Part shown: positions 3,570-24,811 of the stretch, in pieces
Layout: each line of letters opens with the position of its first letter
Numbering within the stretch: position 1 is the stretch's first letter
NCBI GenBank assembly: GCA_029194535.1
Contig: JARFXR010000002.1
Coordinates: forward strand, 992,001 to 1,056,000
Source: Nitrospira sp.
GTDB taxonomy: Bacteria; Nitrospirota; Nitrospiria; Nitrospirales; Nitrospiraceae
Reading direction: 5' to 3'
DNA: 64,000 nucleotides
The notes under the pieces: model-generated
Seen by the model: the letters and a program-made list of their open reading frames with translations, nothing else
Told to the model about the DNA's origin: nothing
The model's database searches: none
Position numbers and translations under genes: made by a program

Positions 3570-3890
3570 ATGAGTAAGACCGTGAAAGTCGACATCTCCA
3601 TGTATGGGATCGCCGAGGTCCTACACTGGTGTCACGATCGAAACAAAGGCCGCATTTCAGGAGTAGATACCGCAGGGTTTGAGAAAATGAAGGCCTTTCT
3701 GGCGGAGAAACCTCAGTCCGGAGATTACTTTACCCTCGACCAGTTCTGGAAGAAACGCGTGACGCTCGAGTTAACTGAAGAGGAAGTGGCGCTGATTGAT
3801 CGCTGCCTCTACGACATCCCGAACTTCGACAACGAGCCGTTGCCGCAGATCCGCCACAAGTTTTGGCCCAAACAGGCCGCTACCACCTGA
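3570..3890 (+). CDS. Small soluble protein of unknown function
   Basis: A 106-residue protein with a very strong RBS (AAGGAGG, 7 bases before the ATG). It has no signal peptide or membrane segment, two cysteines (in HWCHD and DRCLY), several Trp and Phe, and a likely alpha/beta fold. A DsrC/TusE assignment was considered because of size, but the C-terminal Cys-x10-Cys tail of that family is missing. It stands alone between divergent and convergent neighbours. The strong RBS and clean frame make it a real gene; the role is unknown. Confidence 0.75.
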   Translation: MSKTVKVDISMYGIAEVLHWCHDRNKGRISGVDTAGFEKMKAFLAEKPQSGDYFTLDQFWKKRVTLELTEEEVALIDRCLYDIPNFDNEPLPQIRHKFWPKQAATT

Positions 3891-3995: not shown

Positions 3996-4997
3996 TCAGA
4001 GCGTGCCCTCCCCTTTGAGATACCGTCGAAAGCGGTCCATCAACTCGGCTCCAAGCGTTCCGCCCTCGGGCTTCTTGGTCTCCGGATCGGCGAAATGCCC
4101 TCGGATCTCCTTCAACCGTAGTTCCGCTTGTTCATTTCCTTGAAGGCGTTTGGTTTTCTCCAGCGCCGTGTCGAACGCGTCGAAGGTCAATTCGTTATAG
4201 CCGAAGGAGCGGATGCGCTTGACCGCCTTCATCATCGCCTGATTGCGAAACGTCGTGAGATGGTCCGAGTCAATTTCCTTGAGCCCCAATTTTCTGGCTC
4301 GCCGTTCCGCGGCTTTGCGAATTCCGCTCCGGACGAAATCCGGTGACGTCTGCAGCCGCTTCCAGGCCTCGTCAGTCCAGGCGACCCGTTCCTGTGGCCC
4401 ATCCCACAAATCTTTGAGGACATCGCCCGTAATCTGCGTGAGGCCCTTCTCTCGCGCAAGATCTTCGGTATCATGTTTCAGCATGTCGGTCACGAACTCG
4501 ACGGCGATCGGGGGTGACTGCCGCACCTTCTCGCCGAGTGCGGCCAGAGCCTCCTCCGTCCAGGGCAAGGCAGGCGCGGTGTTCTCACGCATGTCTCCCA
4601 TCGCTTCGACCTTTTCGAACAAGTCGATGTTGACCTCAAGGTGTCCCCCTTCTCTGGCGACCTCCTCCGCAATCTGCTTGATCATACCTCGCATGAACTC
4701 CGGGACGGTATTCAGCCGCTCCTTGGCCGCAGCAGTCCAAGGCAGCTGCCCCTGTTCCATCTGGGCAGCAGCATCGGCCATTCCCGACTCGCCGCCCATG
4801 CGCCCCATCATCTGATTCTTGAACTGATCCAGCGTGGTTTCCGTAATTTCCGCCAGACCCAGCTCCCTGGCCTTCTTTTCGGCCAGACGGCGGACCATGC
4901 CCCGAAGGAATACCGGGGCGCGATCCATGCGCTTCAATGCGCCGTCGGTCCAGCGTACATCGGTCACAGCGGTATCGTCGGCATCCGGTGCGCTCAT
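3996..4997 (-). CDS. Protein of four tandem PCP_red domains
   Basis: A 333-residue soluble protein built from four copies of a roughly 45-residue helical unit of the form W-T/x-A-L-R-x-P-x-F-R-G-I-A-E-x-A-R-G-x-I-T. They begin near DVRWTDGALKRM, LPWTAAAKERLN, LPWTEEALAAL and VAWTDEAWKRL. The pattern matches PCP_red, the small C-terminal domain of the light-independent protochlorophyllide reductase subunit BchB/ChlB. No nitrogenase-like catalytic part accompanies it and no chlorophyll gene is nearby. It follows the IHF gene by 12 bases and ends the long aromatic-amino-acid/rpsA block. The stop codon lies inside a GC-rich palindrome (3982-3997) that may help termination. The domain call is confident; the function is unknown. 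Confidence 0.8.
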   Translation of the reverse strand: MSAPDADDTAVTDVRWTDGALKRMDRAPVFLRGMVRRLAEKKARELGLAEITETTLDQFKNQMMGRMGGESGMADAAAQMEQGQLPWTAAAKERLNTVPEFMRGMIKQIAEEVAREGGHLEVNIDLFEKVEAMGDMRENTAPALPWTEEALAALGEKVRQSPPIAVEFVTDMLKHDTEDLAREKGLTQITGDVLKDLWDGPQERVAWTDEAWKRLQTSPDFVRSGIRKAAERRARKLGLKEIDSDHLTTFRNQAMMKAVKRIRSFGYNELTFDAFDTALEKTKRLQGNEQAELRLKEIRGHFADPETKKPEGGTLGAELMDRFRRYLKGEGTL

Positions 4998-5009: not shown

Positions 5010-5288
5010 CTACTGATTCAGCAGTTCTTTAAGTTCCTTGCCGGCCTTGAAGAACGGGACTTTCTTGGCGGGCACGGCCACCGTCGCTCCGGTCTTCGGG
5101 TTACGGCCTTCCTTCATGCGGCGAGCCCTGAGGCGAAAGCTCCCGAACCCGCGAATTTCCGTTTTGTCGCCGTTTTTTAAGGAGTCCCGCACGCAGTCGA
5201 AGATCGTGTTAACGACAATTTCGGCCTGCCGCTTCGTCAAAGTCGTCACCTGCTCGGAGACCCGCTCAATGATTTGGGCTTTCGTCAT
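5010..5288 (-). CDS. IHF/HU-family DNA-bending protein, IHF-beta-like
   Basis: A 92-residue histone-like protein. It has the family's helical dimer core, then the beta arm with EIRGFGSF and GRNPKTGATV, whose Pro intercalates into bent DNA. IRGFGSF and the GKELKELL ending are closer to IHF-beta than to HU. It bends DNA as a dimer in nucleoid organisation, recombination and promoter architecture. It is preceded by sppA (47 bases) and followed by the PCP_red gene (12 bases). A second HU-type gene is at 33663-33935. Confidence 0.93.
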   Translation of the reverse strand: MTKAQIIERVSEQVTTLTKRQAEIVVNTIFDCVRDSLKNGDKTEIRGFGSFRLRARRMKEGRNPKTGATVAVPAKKVPFFKAGKELKELLNQ

Positions 5289-5335: not shown

Positions 5336-6256
5336 TTAAAACGCCATCAGATACTTGAGACTGACTCCCGCATAGAAGTCCAGCCTGGGCAACACCGCCG
5401 CAAGCCGCGATTCGATCAATTCTCTGATCGAAAACCGCCGGCGCGGCTCAACCACCTTCGGTTCACCTTCAATGCCGGCCAAATCCGCAGCCAGTTGAAT
5501 GGCGTCCTCGAGATTGCCCAATTCATCGACCAGCTTGGCCTCCTTGGCCTGACGCCCCGTGAAAATCCGGCCATCCGCAAGCGCTTGAACCGCCGCAGGC
5601 TCCATCGCACGTCCCGCAGCCACCGCGTCGATAAATTGCATGTGCACGTCGTCCATCACGGACTGCAGCAACGCACGTTCTTCATCGCTCATTCGGCGCA
5701 GCGGAGACCCTACGTCCTTGAATTTTCCGCTCTTAACGACGATCCCCTCAACCCCGATCTTTTTCAATAGGCCTTCGACGTTCGCCGTTTCCATGATCAC
5801 CCCGATGCTACCCGTCAACGTCCCGGGGTTGGCGATGATCCGGTCCGTCGCCGACGCGATGTAATAGCCGCCTGACGCGGCAACCGTTCCCATGGAAGCG
5901 ATGACGGCCTTGCTGTTCTTGTTGCGAACACGCTGGACGGCGTCGTAGATCTCCTGTGACGGCACGACGCCTCCGCCGGGACTGTCGATCCGCAACACGA
6001 TGGCCTTGACGGAAGGATTTTCTCCGAAGCGCTTGAGTTCGGTGATCGTCGATTGTGAATCCAAGATGACGCCTTCCACGCGCACGAGCGCAATCCGGTC
6101 TTCCGTCGAAAGGTCGAGATCCGGAAAGAAGATATTGATGAAGAGCATCACCCCCATCACCGCAAGGACTCCCCAGAAGATTTTCCGCTTCAGGGGCCAC
6201 TTGCCTGCATTCGCCGTCGAGCCCTGGTCCATCGTGTCACTCATTGTCTCACTCAC
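5336..6256 (-). CDS. sppA: Signal peptide peptidase SppA, short type
   Basis: A membrane-anchored serine protease that degrades cleaved signal peptides. The N terminus has one transmembrane segment (about residues 26-44), followed by a single peptidase S49 domain. The Ser nucleophile is in AASGGYYIA (Ser128), and the general-base Lys is most likely Lys180 in KSGKFKD, matching the Ser/Lys dyad of Bacillus-type SppA. At 306 residues it is the single-domain form, not the tandem 67-kDa E. coli form. It sits between rpsA and the IHF gene, all minus strand with short gaps. Confidence 0.93.
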   Translation of the reverse strand: MSETMSDTMDQGSTANAGKWPLKRKIFWGVLAVMGVMLFINIFFPDLDLSTEDRIALVRVEGVILDSQSTITELKRFGENPSVKAIVLRIDSPGGGVVPSQEIYDAVQRVRNKNSKAVIASMGTVAASGGYYIASATDRIIANPGTLTGSIGVIMETANVEGLLKKIGVEGIVVKSGKFKDVGSPLRRMSDEERALLQSVMDDVHMQFIDAVAAGRAMEPAAVQALADGRIFTGRQAKEAKLVDELGNLEDAIQLAADLAGIEGEPKVVEPRRRFSIRELIESRLAAVLPRLDFYAGVSLKYLMAF

Positions 6257-6300: not shown

Positions 6301-8016
6301 CTACTTCTCCTCGTCCTGCGCTGCCCGCTTCCGGCTCTGTTTGGCCGCGCGTCCCAGACTCTGATCCGGCGCTCCCTGGGCCGCATGATATTCGTCCACG
6401 TGCCGGCGCTCCGAGTCCAGCTGATGGTCGCGAAGACTCAGGGCGATTTTTCGCTCATCACGATCCACCTTGATGATCTTGGCTGCGACTTCATCCTGGA
6501 CCTTGAACTTCTCCTCGAGTTTGGCACTCGGATCAAGTCCGGCCTCGCTGACATGGATCAACCCTTCGACTCCGCCTTCCAGCTCGATGAAGATCCCGAA
6601 GTCTGCGACCTTGCTGACCTTCCCGCTTGCGGAATCTCCCACGCGGTAGCGGCTGGGAATTTCGTCATCCCAGGGGTCGCGGCTCAGCTGTTTATAGCCG
6701 AGTGAAAGTCGCTCCTTCTCCTTGTCGATCCGGAGCACGACAGCTTCCACCTTCTGGCCCTTCTTGAACAACTCGGACGGATGCTTGATGTGCTTGGTCC
6801 AGGACATGTCGGAAATGTGGATCAAGCCGTCGATACCTTCGTCCAGGCCGACGAAAGCCCCAAAATCGGTGAGGCTCTTGACCTTTCCCTCGATCCTGGT
6901 TCCGGTCGGATATTTACTTTCGACCATGTCCCATGGATTGGGAGCGGTCTGTTTCATGCCGAGAGAAATCTTTCGGCTGGCAGGATCCACGTTCAACACC
7001 GCAGCTTCGACCTGGTCTCCGATCGCCACGACGCGCGACGGGTGCCGCACCTCGTGGGTCCATGACATTTCCGACACGTGCACCAACCCCTCCACGCCCG
7101 GCTCGAGTTCCACAAAGGCCCCGTAGTCCGTCAGGCTCACAACCTTGCCGCGCACGCGCGTGCCGATCGGATACTTGGCGGCGACGCTCGTCCAAGGGTC
7201 GGCAGACTTCTGCTTCAGACCGAGCGAGATGCGGCCGGTCTCCCGATCATACTTCAGGACGCTCACCTCGACCCGATCTCCCACGTTGAACATTTCGGAG
7301 GGATGGCCCACCCGTCCCCAAGACATATCGGTGATGTGCAGCAACCCGTCGATTCCGCCCAGGTCAATAAAAGCGCCATAGTCGGTGATGTTCTTCACCA
7401 TCCCCTGAATCAGCTGGCCCTCCTTGAGCGTCGCGAGGGTGGATTGTCGCTTCTTGTCTCTCGTTTCCTCCAACAGCACGCGCCGGGACACCACGACATT
7501 GCCGCGACGATGGTTGATCTTGATGATCTTCATGGGAAACGTGCGGCCGACCAATCCATCGAGGTCGCGCACCGGATGGAGGTCGATCTGGGAACCGGGC
7601 AGAAAGGCCTTCACCCCGATGTCCACCATCATGCCCCCTTTGATCCGGGAGACCACCTTGCCGTCGATGCTCTTTTCCTCCTTGTATAACTTTTCCAATT
7701 CCTCCCAAATCTTCATCTTGTCGGCTTTTTCTTTGGACAAGACGAGATTGCCGTCCGCATCCTCGCACTCCTCGATGTAGACTTGAAGGCAGTCACCGAT
7801 CTTAAGCTGCTGCAGCTCTTCCGCCGCAAACTGATCGCTCGGAATCATCCCCTCGGACTTGTAGCCGATATCGACGACCACCTTGTCCTTCGTAAGGGCA
7901 ACGACACGGCCCTCCGTAATGGTCCCCTCTTCGAGATTCTTGAACGTTTCTTCGTACAGCGCCGCCAAGGCGTTGCGGTCCAACAGCTGATCACTCGATT
8001 TCGAAACCGTGCTCAT
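6301..8016 (-). CDS. rpsA: 30S ribosomal protein S1
   Basis: A 571-residue RNA-binding ribosomal protein that brings mRNA to the 30S subunit. Six S1 (OB-fold) repeats are visible in order; repeats 3-6 share the strong pattern V-x-G-V/I-x-D-Y/F-G-A-F-V-x-L-E-G-x-G-L-x-H-x-S (for example TDYGAFIDLGGIDGLLHITD), while the first two are more divergent, as usual for the ribosome-binding half. The tail is basic and charged. Like many bacteria it lies just downstream of cmk, here with plsC between. Confidence 0.97.
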   Translation of the reverse strand: MSTVSKSSDQLLDRNALAALYEETFKNLEEGTITEGRVVALTKDKVVVDIGYKSEGMIPSDQFAAEELQQLKIGDCLQVYIEECEDADGNLVLSKEKADKMKIWEELEKLYKEEKSIDGKVVSRIKGGMMVDIGVKAFLPGSQIDLHPVRDLDGLVGRTFPMKIIKINHRRGNVVVSRRVLLEETRDKKRQSTLATLKEGQLIQGMVKNITDYGAFIDLGGIDGLLHITDMSWGRVGHPSEMFNVGDRVEVSVLKYDRETGRISLGLKQKSADPWTSVAAKYPIGTRVRGKVVSLTDYGAFVELEPGVEGLVHVSEMSWTHEVRHPSRVVAIGDQVEAAVLNVDPASRKISLGMKQTAPNPWDMVESKYPTGTRIEGKVKSLTDFGAFVGLDEGIDGLIHISDMSWTKHIKHPSELFKKGQKVEAVVLRIDKEKERLSLGYKQLSRDPWDDEIPSRYRVGDSASGKVSKVADFGIFIELEGGVEGLIHVSEAGLDPSAKLEEKFKVQDEVAAKIIKVDRDERKIALSLRDHQLDSERRHVDEYHAAQGAPDQSLGRAAKQSRKRAAQDEEK

Positions 8017-23112: not shown

Positions 23113-23868
23113 CTACATGAATTTCATGAACTTGTCTTTGGCATCGTCCATCACTTGCGCCGTAATCGTCGCAACGCCGCGCTCTTTGGCCAGCCGTTCG
23201 ATCTCCTTGCGGGCCATCGGACGGATGAAGTCGGGGATGTTGTCGAGCCGCTGCTCCGCTTCGCGCGTCCAGGCAATGCCGTTGGGTGAGTCGTTCTTGG
23301 AATCGTCCATCACTTGCAACGTGATGGTTGTATAGCCTTGCTTTCTGGCATAGGCTTCCACACTGCTCTGAACCATCGGCTTGACGAAAGCCGGGAGCCG
23401 GTCGAGTTTTTCTTTGGCGTCGGCCGTCCATGTGAACTCTGAATTCGCCGGCGCGCCGCTGGCCGGCTTACCGGAAGACGTGAGACCCATTTCAGCCACC
23501 ATCGCAGAGAACGGGCAACCGCTGCTTCCCCCCTTGTCGCCGCTCTTGTGGGCAGAGGCGGGCGACGCGCCAACCGGTTGGCCGCCCTGAATCTTCTCGT
23601 TCAAGTAGGCAGCCATCTGACCAGAGCCCGCCAATGCTTCGTCTTTCAGGGTTCCTCTCGTCATTTCGAACGGCTCCGGGGCAACGGTCCTCCCACCCAA
23701 TTTCACGCCCAGCGAACTGACCATTTGCGTTTCGCCTGGATTGGTCACCATCGAAAATTTCGCTCCGCAGGACGGGCAGCCGAAAAACACTCCGAGGGAC
23801 CCTTCCCCGGGCTTCTCGACCTTTTCGAAGTTCATATAGGTTTCGCAATTAAGACACACGAATTTCAT
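23113..23868 (-). CDS. Zinc-ribbon protein with two PCP_red domains
   Basis: A 251-residue protein. The N terminus is a zinc ribbon (CLNC at residues 5-8 and CPSC about 26 residues later). A linker with GCPFSAMV follows, then two PCP_red repeats at the C terminus (FTWTADAKEKLDRLPAFVK and IAWTREAEQRLDNIPDFIR, each ending with a conserved I-T-x-Q-V-M-D-D-x-K). ATG 23868 has an AGGAG RBS. It starts 22 bases after the Mrp-type Fe-S carrier and is surely co-transcribed with it, and is followed by a terminator. The pairing with an Fe-S assembly factor suggests a metal or Fe-S link, but this is inference. A four-repeat relative is at 3996-4997. Confidence 0.8.
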   Translation of the reverse strand: MKFVCLNCETYMNFEKVEKPGEGSLGVFFGCPSCGAKFSMVTNPGETQMVSSLGVKLGGRTVAPEPFEMTRGTLKDEALAGSGQMAAYLNEKIQGGQPVGASPASAHKSGDKGGSSGCPFSAMVAEMGLTSSGKPASGAPANSEFTWTADAKEKLDRLPAFVKPMVQSSVEAYARKQGYTTITLQVMDDSKNDSPNGIAWTREAEQRLDNIPDFIRPMARKEIERLAKERGVATITAQVMDDAKDKFMKFM

Positions 23869-23890: not shown

Positions 23891-24811
23891 TCACAGTTTT
23901 TCGGCCAAGACCTTCTTGTAATCCAGCAGCGTTCGAATACGCCCGGCGACTTCCTGGTAACGCTGGATGGTCGGATACGTCTCATCCAGCAACGGTTCGC
24001 CCTTATCGAAGGTACGGGCAAGTTTCCGGTCAAAGGGGATACGGCCAAGAAGAGGGAGATCCAACACTTCGCACATGGCTTCGGTATTGCCTTCGAACAA
24101 TTCGTTTTGCTCCCCGCACGACGGGCAGCGGTACTCGCTCATGTTTTCGACGATGCCCAATACTTTAATCCCCATGTCCCGAGCATACGTAACGGACTTC
24201 TGGACGACATCGGATGCGACCTCGGAGGGGGTCGTGACGACGATCGCGCCGGCCAAATCGGGAATGAAGCCGGCGATGACAGGCGGTTTGTCCGCGGCGG
24301 CACCAGGCGGGAGATCCGCAAGCAAATAGTCCAACTCTCCCCAGACGACGTCGGCCAAAAACTCTCGAATGACGTTCATTTCCATCAGTCCCAGCCAGAC
24401 CGGGCTGACATCCATGGGGCCTTTCCACCTCACAGGGGACGCGGCCCCGAGAAAGAAGTCCATGGAGGCGACTTTGATGCCCAATGGTCCGATGGGCGGA
24501 ACCGCCCCTTCGGGGGTCATGGTCAACGACCGGCCATGCAGGCCGAGCATGCGAGGAACACAGGGGCCGTTCAGATCCACATCGAGCAGGCCGACACGAC
24601 TGTGCTGCCGCGCCAACGCCAGCGCCAGATTGACCGTGGTCATGCTCTTGCCCACACCGCCCTTGCCGCTCATGACCACCAGCTTATGCTTGATGCCCGC
24701 CATTCTGGCCTGCACCTGCTGCATCTGCTCGGTGATTTGCTGTACGACCTTGGCGTCGTCGGAGTACCGAAGCTTACCGAGAATCGTCTTCAGATCCTTT
24801 TCGGGAGCCAT
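23891..24811 (-). CDS. Mrp/NBP35-family Fe-S cluster carrier ATPase
   Basis: A P-loop ATPase that carries and delivers 4Fe-4S clusters. The deviant Walker A GKGGVGKS is at residues 49-56, preceded by a helical N terminus instead of the usual DUF59 domain. CPSCGEQ toward the C terminus is the bridging CxxC that binds the cluster between two subunits, and MDFFLGAASPVRWKGPM matches the switch region. The 306-residue gene is followed 22 bases later by the zinc-ribbon/PCP_red gene. Confidence 0.92.
   Translation of the reverse strand: MAPEKDLKTILGKLRYSDDAKVVQQITEQMQQVQARMAGIKHKLVVMSGKGGVGKSMTTVNLALALARQHSRVGLLDVDLNGPCVPRMLGLHGRSLTMTPEGAVPPIGPLGIKVASMDFFLGAASPVRWKGPMDVSPVWLGLMEMNVIREFLADVVWGELDYLLADLPPGAAADKPPVIAGFIPDLAGAIVVTTPSEVASDVVQKSVTYARDMGIKVLGIVENMSEYRCPSCGEQNELFEGNTEAMCEVLDLPLLGRIPFDRKLARTFDKGEPLLDETYPTIQRYQEVAGRIRTLLDYKKVLAEKL

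Follow-up and report, generated by a model that had tools for sequence, protein, structure and literature searches.

The window, a 64,000-nucleotide stretch of a Nitrospira sp. contig (JARFXR010000002.1, positions 992,001 to 1,056,000), carries near its start a conserved run of genes on one strand, rpsA-sppA-HU-PCP4, of which PCP4 is the last (Table 1). An earlier note on this DNA had placed PCP4 at the end of an rpsA/IHF operon; this position was confirmed, and sppA, which that description had omitted, belongs to the same operon. Convergent to PCP4 lies a 106-aa ORF at 3570-3890 (+), for which no Pfam or NCBIfam match was found; nearly all of the examined loci of Nitrospiraceae conserve it, with 65-93% identity. 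A promoter and terminator scan gave counts no better than chance.

Table 1 Genes and protein segments of the PCP4 locus and of a second PCP_red locus in the window.
Feature	Position	Strand	Basis or remark
PCP4, four-copy PCP_red protein, 333 aa, without cysteine	3996..4997	-	ORF with ATG start, PF08369, composition
PCP_red copy 1 (aa 15-59), basic, pI ~10.4 for aa 14-62	4821..4955	-	Profile, composition
PCP_red copy 2 (aa 86-130), acidic, 'GGHxEVN' motif	4608..4742	-	Profile, composition
PCP_red copy 3 (aa 145-197), degenerate, acidic, 31.1 bits	4407..4565	-	Profile
PCP_red copy 4 (aa 206-250), basic, pI ~10.8, most conserved	4248..4382	-	Composition, alignment
Extension behind copy 4 (aa 251-282), conserved half-repeat-like segment 'AMMKAVKRIRSFGYNELTFDAFD'	4152..4247	-	
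C-terminal helical tail of PCP4 (aa 283-333)	3999..4151	-	
HU/IHF-type DNA-binding protein gene	5010..5288	-	PF00216; stop 12 nt upstream of PCP4
sppA, signal-peptide peptidase (S49)	5336..6256	-	Same operon as PCP4
rpsA, ribosomal protein S1	6301..8016	-	First in conserved run
Zinc-ribbon PCP_red protein, 251 aa, N-terminal CxxC...CxxC zinc-ribbon-like segment and two PCP_red	23113..23868	-	In window
Mrp/ApbC-type P-loop ATPase	23891..24811	-	Directly upstream of zinc-ribbon PCP_red gene

When PCP4 was searched with hmmscan, PF08369 (PCP_red) was its sole Pfam match (E 3.1e-48), covering four stretches and scoring 162 bits, above the curated cut-off of 32.5. Copies 1, 2 and 4 lie above this cut-off individually (53.2, 50.6 and 50.5 bits), and copy 3, which is degenerate and has an insertion of ~8 aa, lies just under it. 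Only PCP_red was detected in the protein, which has no Oxidored_nitro module, and the BchB equivalogs scored 63-99 bits on it, under their cut-offs of 490-912. The similarity to PCP_red on which the earlier note had relied is thereby confirmed. The pI of the whole protein is 5.7, with repeats 2 and 3 acidic and repeats 1 and 4 basic. Metal or Fe-S binding, which had been suggested for the domain here, found no support for PCP4: 39 of 41 orthologues are without cysteine, the remaining two have one each, and there are only 2-8 scattered histidines. Without conserved cysteine ligands across these 41 orthologues, PCP4 was rejected as an Fe-S or metal protein; protein binding, suggested at the same time, is plausible.

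Two AlphaFold2 models of PCP4 (mean pLDDT 71 and 77, pTM 0.56 and 0.45) predict four helical repeats, the mutual placement of which is uncertain. The top two structure matches of the better model were 2kru (Z 8.7) and 2l09 (Z 8.0); the prediction thus agrees with solved PCP_red domains and reveals no unrelated fold. PCP4 has the same domain as BchB/ChlB (2kru, 2xdq) by sequence (E 3e-48) and by model (2kru, 59 residues, 34% identity), with the W, P-x-F-V-R and I-T positions in common, but it consists of four tandem copies alone, with no nitrogenase-like module, in a host that has neither DPOR nor COR. Asr4154 of Nostoc (2l09) is likewise a PCP_red outside DPOR, but has one 62-residue copy, as against the four copies, extension and tail of PCP4. 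Lids of RuvB/RuvBL AAA+ proteins also matched the model, though more weakly (Z 6-7, 50-60 residues), as small helical domains often do. Their helical arrangement is similar (50-56 residues at Z ~7 and 1.2-2.1 Å), but identity is 3-24%, PCP4 has no ATPase module, and the small helical arrangement alone is in common. Histone folds matched at low Foldseek probability only, and the viral fold library yielded no match to PCP4. Across 60 diverse homologues, the invariant residues fall within repeat 4 and the extension: W207, A211, R214, P219, R223, G225, K228, R251, R261, G266 and A278. Five of these eleven are basic, which would fit contact with either an acidic surface of a partner or a ligand rich in carboxylates, a porphyrin for instance.

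Near full-length PCP4 orthologues were present in 57 of 61 Nitrospirales genomes (67-95% identity), and two further genomes had fragments at contig ends. PCP4 is a single-copy gene across Nitrospirales, every intact orthologue examined has four PCP_red copies, and of 41 loci 38 have HU and SppA next to the gene; the three that do not are from f4 genomes. Since orthologues, copy number and neighbours are all conserved, PCP4 is not a chance ORF. The mean column identity of an alignment of 41 sequences is 79%, and copy 4 (34/49 columns invariant) and the extension are nearly invariant. Judged by these sequences, the conservation profile is that of an important housekeeping protein.

Homologues of PCP4 occur further in the class (families f5, f6, f7, f29, f31 and f32) and in families f13 and f15 of the phylum. 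With the repeat-3/4 region as query against 84,980 species genomes, 355 relatives were confirmed. The best 80 of these 355 came from Nitrospirota, anammox planctomycetes (Scalindua, Brocadia, Kuenenia and Jettenia), other planctomycete MAGs and Nitrospinota, together with two single MAGs, one assigned to Neomarinimicrobiota and the other unclassified. A Scalindua-like radical-SAM-PCP gene (L107:2403-4172 (+)) sits on a contig that is assigned to Neomarinimicrobiota but has probably been mis-binned. No PCP4 match was found on plasmids, and there is accordingly no sign of plasmid spread. Family f16 has another kind of protein, 341 aa long and headed by one PCP_red copy (L174:3036-4061 (+)); the tailed radical-SAM gene described below was not found in that genome (G085).

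PF08369 takes its name from chlorophyll synthesis and serves as a marker of it. PCP_red matches were present in all 41 Nitrospirales genomes searched (from 4 to at least 12 each, mostly at least 8-12), and no nitrogenase-like (DPOR/COR) gene, searched for as Oxidored_nitro (PF00148) above cut-off, was found in these 41 genomes, the host included. The ORF, its profile match and this absence bear out the original description of a four-copy PCP_red protein, as far as the absence of a chlorophyll reductase is concerned. That the domain has a role outside DPOR finds good support, and the free-standing role proposed in the earlier note is right in spirit. PF08369 has been listed among the Pfams most prevalent in phototrophs (PMC12815261); used as a marker of phototrophy, it would give false positives in Nitrospirales, which have many matches and no chlorophyll reductase.

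PCP4 is one of five PCP_red proteins in the host genome. The second is the zinc-ribbon protein of the window, whose neighbouring ATPase scores 256 bits with MrpORP and 174 bits with ApbC, both under cut-off. The third is a USP-PCP_red-rubredoxin protein of 697 aa (two USP domains, a rubredoxin-like segment and three PCP_red), and its gene adjoins that of the fourth, a radical-SAM/SPASM protein with one C-terminal PCP_red. The fifth is a 187-aa protein with two PCP_red, and a gene for a cytochrome bd-like oxidase lies just downstream of its gene. The USP-PCP and radical-SAM-PCP genes have two further genes upstream of them, at L028:6605-9075 (+) on C2 of the host genome. One encodes a methyl-plastoquinone methyltransferase of the MpqE type (412 bits, cut-off 335); the other is a radical-SAM gene of the B12 type, close to slr0320 (443 bits, cut-off 775).

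A link between PCP4 and the radical-SAM protein is suggested above all by gene fusions. Three f15 loci (L073, L074 and L075) encode a single protein of 706-730 aa that combines radical SAM, SPASM and four PCP_red. By pairwise comparison, its first PCP is 50% identical to the tail of the host radical-SAM protein, and its PCPs 2-4 correspond to repeats 2-4 of PCP4 (54, 27 and 65% identity), copy 2 of PCP4 being the best match of the second. The fusion gene is preceded by a USP-PCP gene and directly followed by one for a HemY-type protoporphyrinogen oxidase (304 bits, cut-off 98). The module of repeat 4 plus extension is also fused to radical-SAM proteins in Scalindua, Brocadia, Kuenenia, Jettenia and Nitrospinota, and recurs in the USP-PCP proteins beside those genes; in anammox bacteria and some Nitrospinota, the radical-SAM enzyme has two or three PCP_red, one of them of the repeat-4 type.

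Synteny outside Nitrospirales families f1-f3 points the same way. The order USP-PCP, radical SAM, PCP4, CopD-like is found at L086, L087, L123 and L159; it covers families f7 and f31 and Ca. Manganitrophus besides L159. In f6 (L088) all parts of the system lie within 13 kb; in f5 (L083) Mrp and zinc-ribbon PCP genes are followed by PCP4; and in f4 PCP4 comes two to three genes after HemD. In the window the zinc-ribbon PCP and Mrp genes lie next to each other; in L083 and L088 they lie next to PCP4, which has a further, TenA/PqqC-like neighbour there. This neighbour is nearest to the CADD family, and its best match in the host genome is only 31% identical and located elsewhere. Outside Nitrospirales, PCP4 and the tailed enzyme occur together in 10 of 14 genomes, for which the Fisher test (p 9e-7) ignores relatedness and is descriptive only. 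In f7 the enzyme adjoins PCP4, though it is below the co-occurrence threshold; G206 has the tailed enzyme and no PCP4, and the neighbours of PCP4 in f13 (L081, L082) and f32 (L085) are unrelated. Because PCP4 in other families stands elsewhere, often with radical-SAM or Mrp genes, it seems to have been moved into the rpsA operon locally, within families f1-f3.

The host radical-SAM-PCP protein (L028:11814-13211, or C2:911814-913211) contains PF04055 (E 1e-22) and the SPASM domain PF13186 (E 9e-10), and scores 321 bits with NirJ2, 312 with AhbD and only 108 with PqqE. NirJ2 and AhbD were likewise the top families of five relatives, and tail-free homologues in the phylum reached 444-452 bits with AhbD. 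The protein thus resembles AhbD (heme b synthase) and NirJ/NirJ2 (heme d1) in having radical-SAM and SPASM domains and in scoring best with both families, but differs in its PCP_red tail, in its own clade and in scoring under both NCBIfam equivalog cut-offs (500 bits each). In a tree of 54 enzymes, a 100/99 branch separates 39 PCP-tailed from 15 tail-free AhbD-like sequences, and the f15 fusions cluster with the host protein (100/97). Since the tailed enzymes form their own clade and both kinds occur together in three genomes (G162, G201 and G219), the tailed enzyme is, on its sequence, a distinct paralogue within a tetrapyrrole-type branch. For the same reason the partner was not accepted as AhbD, since each of those three genomes has an AhbD-like enzyme in addition to it.

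The host has HemE, HemH and HemY together (C2:298.6-302.2 kb), so that no extra enzyme is needed for ordinary heme b. A missing step of ordinary heme synthesis is therefore unlikely; an additional step on heme, or its delivery, has more in its favour than a part in basic synthesis. The substrate need not be a tetrapyrrole, given that the enzyme scores under the NirJ2 and AhbD cut-offs. The earlier note had implied that the free-standing domain was separate from tetrapyrrole chemistry; with relatives fused to a NirJ2/AhbD-like enzyme and lying beside HemY or HemD, that separation is probably wrong.

Respiratory genes are recurrent neighbours. A gene for a cytochrome bd-like oxidase accompanies tailed enzymes in f24 and f28 (with USP and a Crp-type regulator) and at five Scalindua loci, and at L095 it stands further off from the tailed enzyme; in f14 and in the host genome it adjoins small PCP_red genes. 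Taken as raw occurrences, these PCP_red neighbourhoods would point to heme-rich respiration. In f25, at L184:2531-6001 (+), a tailed radical-SAM gene stands between an NrfD-like gene and genes for cytochrome c and a NosZ-like protein, and f23 has a MoaA-like neighbour. A BchU-like O-methyltransferase near bd-like genes was set aside (64 bits vs 276).

Taken together, the gene fusions and neighbours suggest that PCP4 aids a radical-SAM enzyme of the heme family. The reading we favour, with about as much doubt as confidence, is that PCP4 is a cysteine-free accessory or carrier module which would work in trans with the PCP_red-tailed radical-SAM/SPASM enzyme of the NirJ2/AhbD branch in tetrapyrrole metabolism. 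Action in trans is what the f15 fusion would predict. The basic repeats 1 and 4, with their conserved FVR/K cluster, may dock on the PCP tail of the enzyme or hold a propionate-bearing tetrapyrrole, a docking that can be likened to the way in which PCP_red sits on the porphyrin enzyme BchB. PCP4, which would itself be metal-free, may then scaffold the enzyme, its substrate and its Fe-S supply, or hand the product to heme-rich respiratory proteins, for example the neighbouring cytochrome bd-like oxidases; the zinc-ribbon PCP and Mrp may provide Fe-S or control it. The least secure part of this mechanism is the step on the substrate. The location of PCP4 in a ribosomal-protein operon in Nitrospirales, away from the radical-SAM gene, counts against the reading, and so do the unrelated neighbours in f13 and f32, the tailed enzyme without PCP4 in G206, the scores under the NirJ2 and AhbD cut-offs, the host's own HemE, HemH and HemY, and the neighbours in f25 and f23.

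The same associations might arise if PCP4 were a general protein-docking scaffold in the maturation of a non-tetrapyrrole radical-SAM product (peptide or quinone), with PCP_red as an assembly tag common to USP, zinc-ribbon and radical-SAM parts. The variety of partner domains among the five host proteins (USP, rubredoxin-like, zinc ribbon and radical SAM) would fit this, as would the MpqE quinone methyltransferase and B12-type radical-SAM gene just upstream of the USP-PCP operon. However, the NirJ2 and AhbD profiles give about three times the bits of PqqE, the neighbours include HemY, HemD and cytochrome, and the only characterised PCP_red hosts (BchB, and BchZ by weak similarity) act on porphyrins; we regard this alternative as possible but doubtful. 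Quite improbable, in our estimate, is a chaperone role in which PCP4, together with the Mrp/ApbC-type ATPase and the zinc-ribbon PCP, loads Fe-S into the radical-SAM enzyme with no contact to a tetrapyrrole: these two genes do lie beside PCP4 in L083 and L088 and beside each other in the window, but a protein without cysteine would carry no cluster by thiolates, and Mrp, a general Fe-S carrier, may merely have been drawn into the cluster. Very improbable is a protein that associates with the nucleoid or the ribosome, is expressed together with S1 and HU, and binds nucleic acid through its two basic repeats (pI ~10.4-10.8): the operon with rpsA and HU in 38/41 loci and the resemblance to the RuvB/RuvBL lid and, faintly, to histone folds are in its favour, but we lowered it to this level because the gene position differs in other families, being confined to f1-f3 while f4 and others have PCP4 elsewhere, often with radical-SAM or Mrp genes, and moreover repeats 2-3 and the protein as a whole are acidic and a radical-SAM fusion would make no sense for a nucleoid protein.

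In PCP4 a known domain is arranged in a new way, within a gene system that is conserved and apparently undescribed; in the papers found on PCP_red, on the PCP reductase family and on Nitrospira with NirJ or protochlorophyllide reductase, the PCP4 system was not described. The PCP_red domain probably serves tetrapyrrole chemistry well beyond photosynthesis. As a more speculative extension, which we think unlikely, PCP_red might mark an undescribed pathway of tetrapyrrole modification or delivery, composed of the tailed NirJ2/AhbD-like enzyme, PCP4, USP-PCP, zinc-ribbon PCP and the Mrp-type ATPase, that would make a special heme, or insert one, for respiratory complexes, cytochrome bd-like ones among them, in nitrite-oxidising and Mn-oxidising Nitrospirota, Nitrospinota and anammox planctomycetes; this use of the domain would then be the older one, with the chlorophyll reductases as one of its branches. 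If the favoured reading is right, PCP_red would assist tetrapyrrole enzymes in general, and a gene system conserved in nitrite oxidisers and anammox bacteria, organisms of global importance, would open to direct testing.
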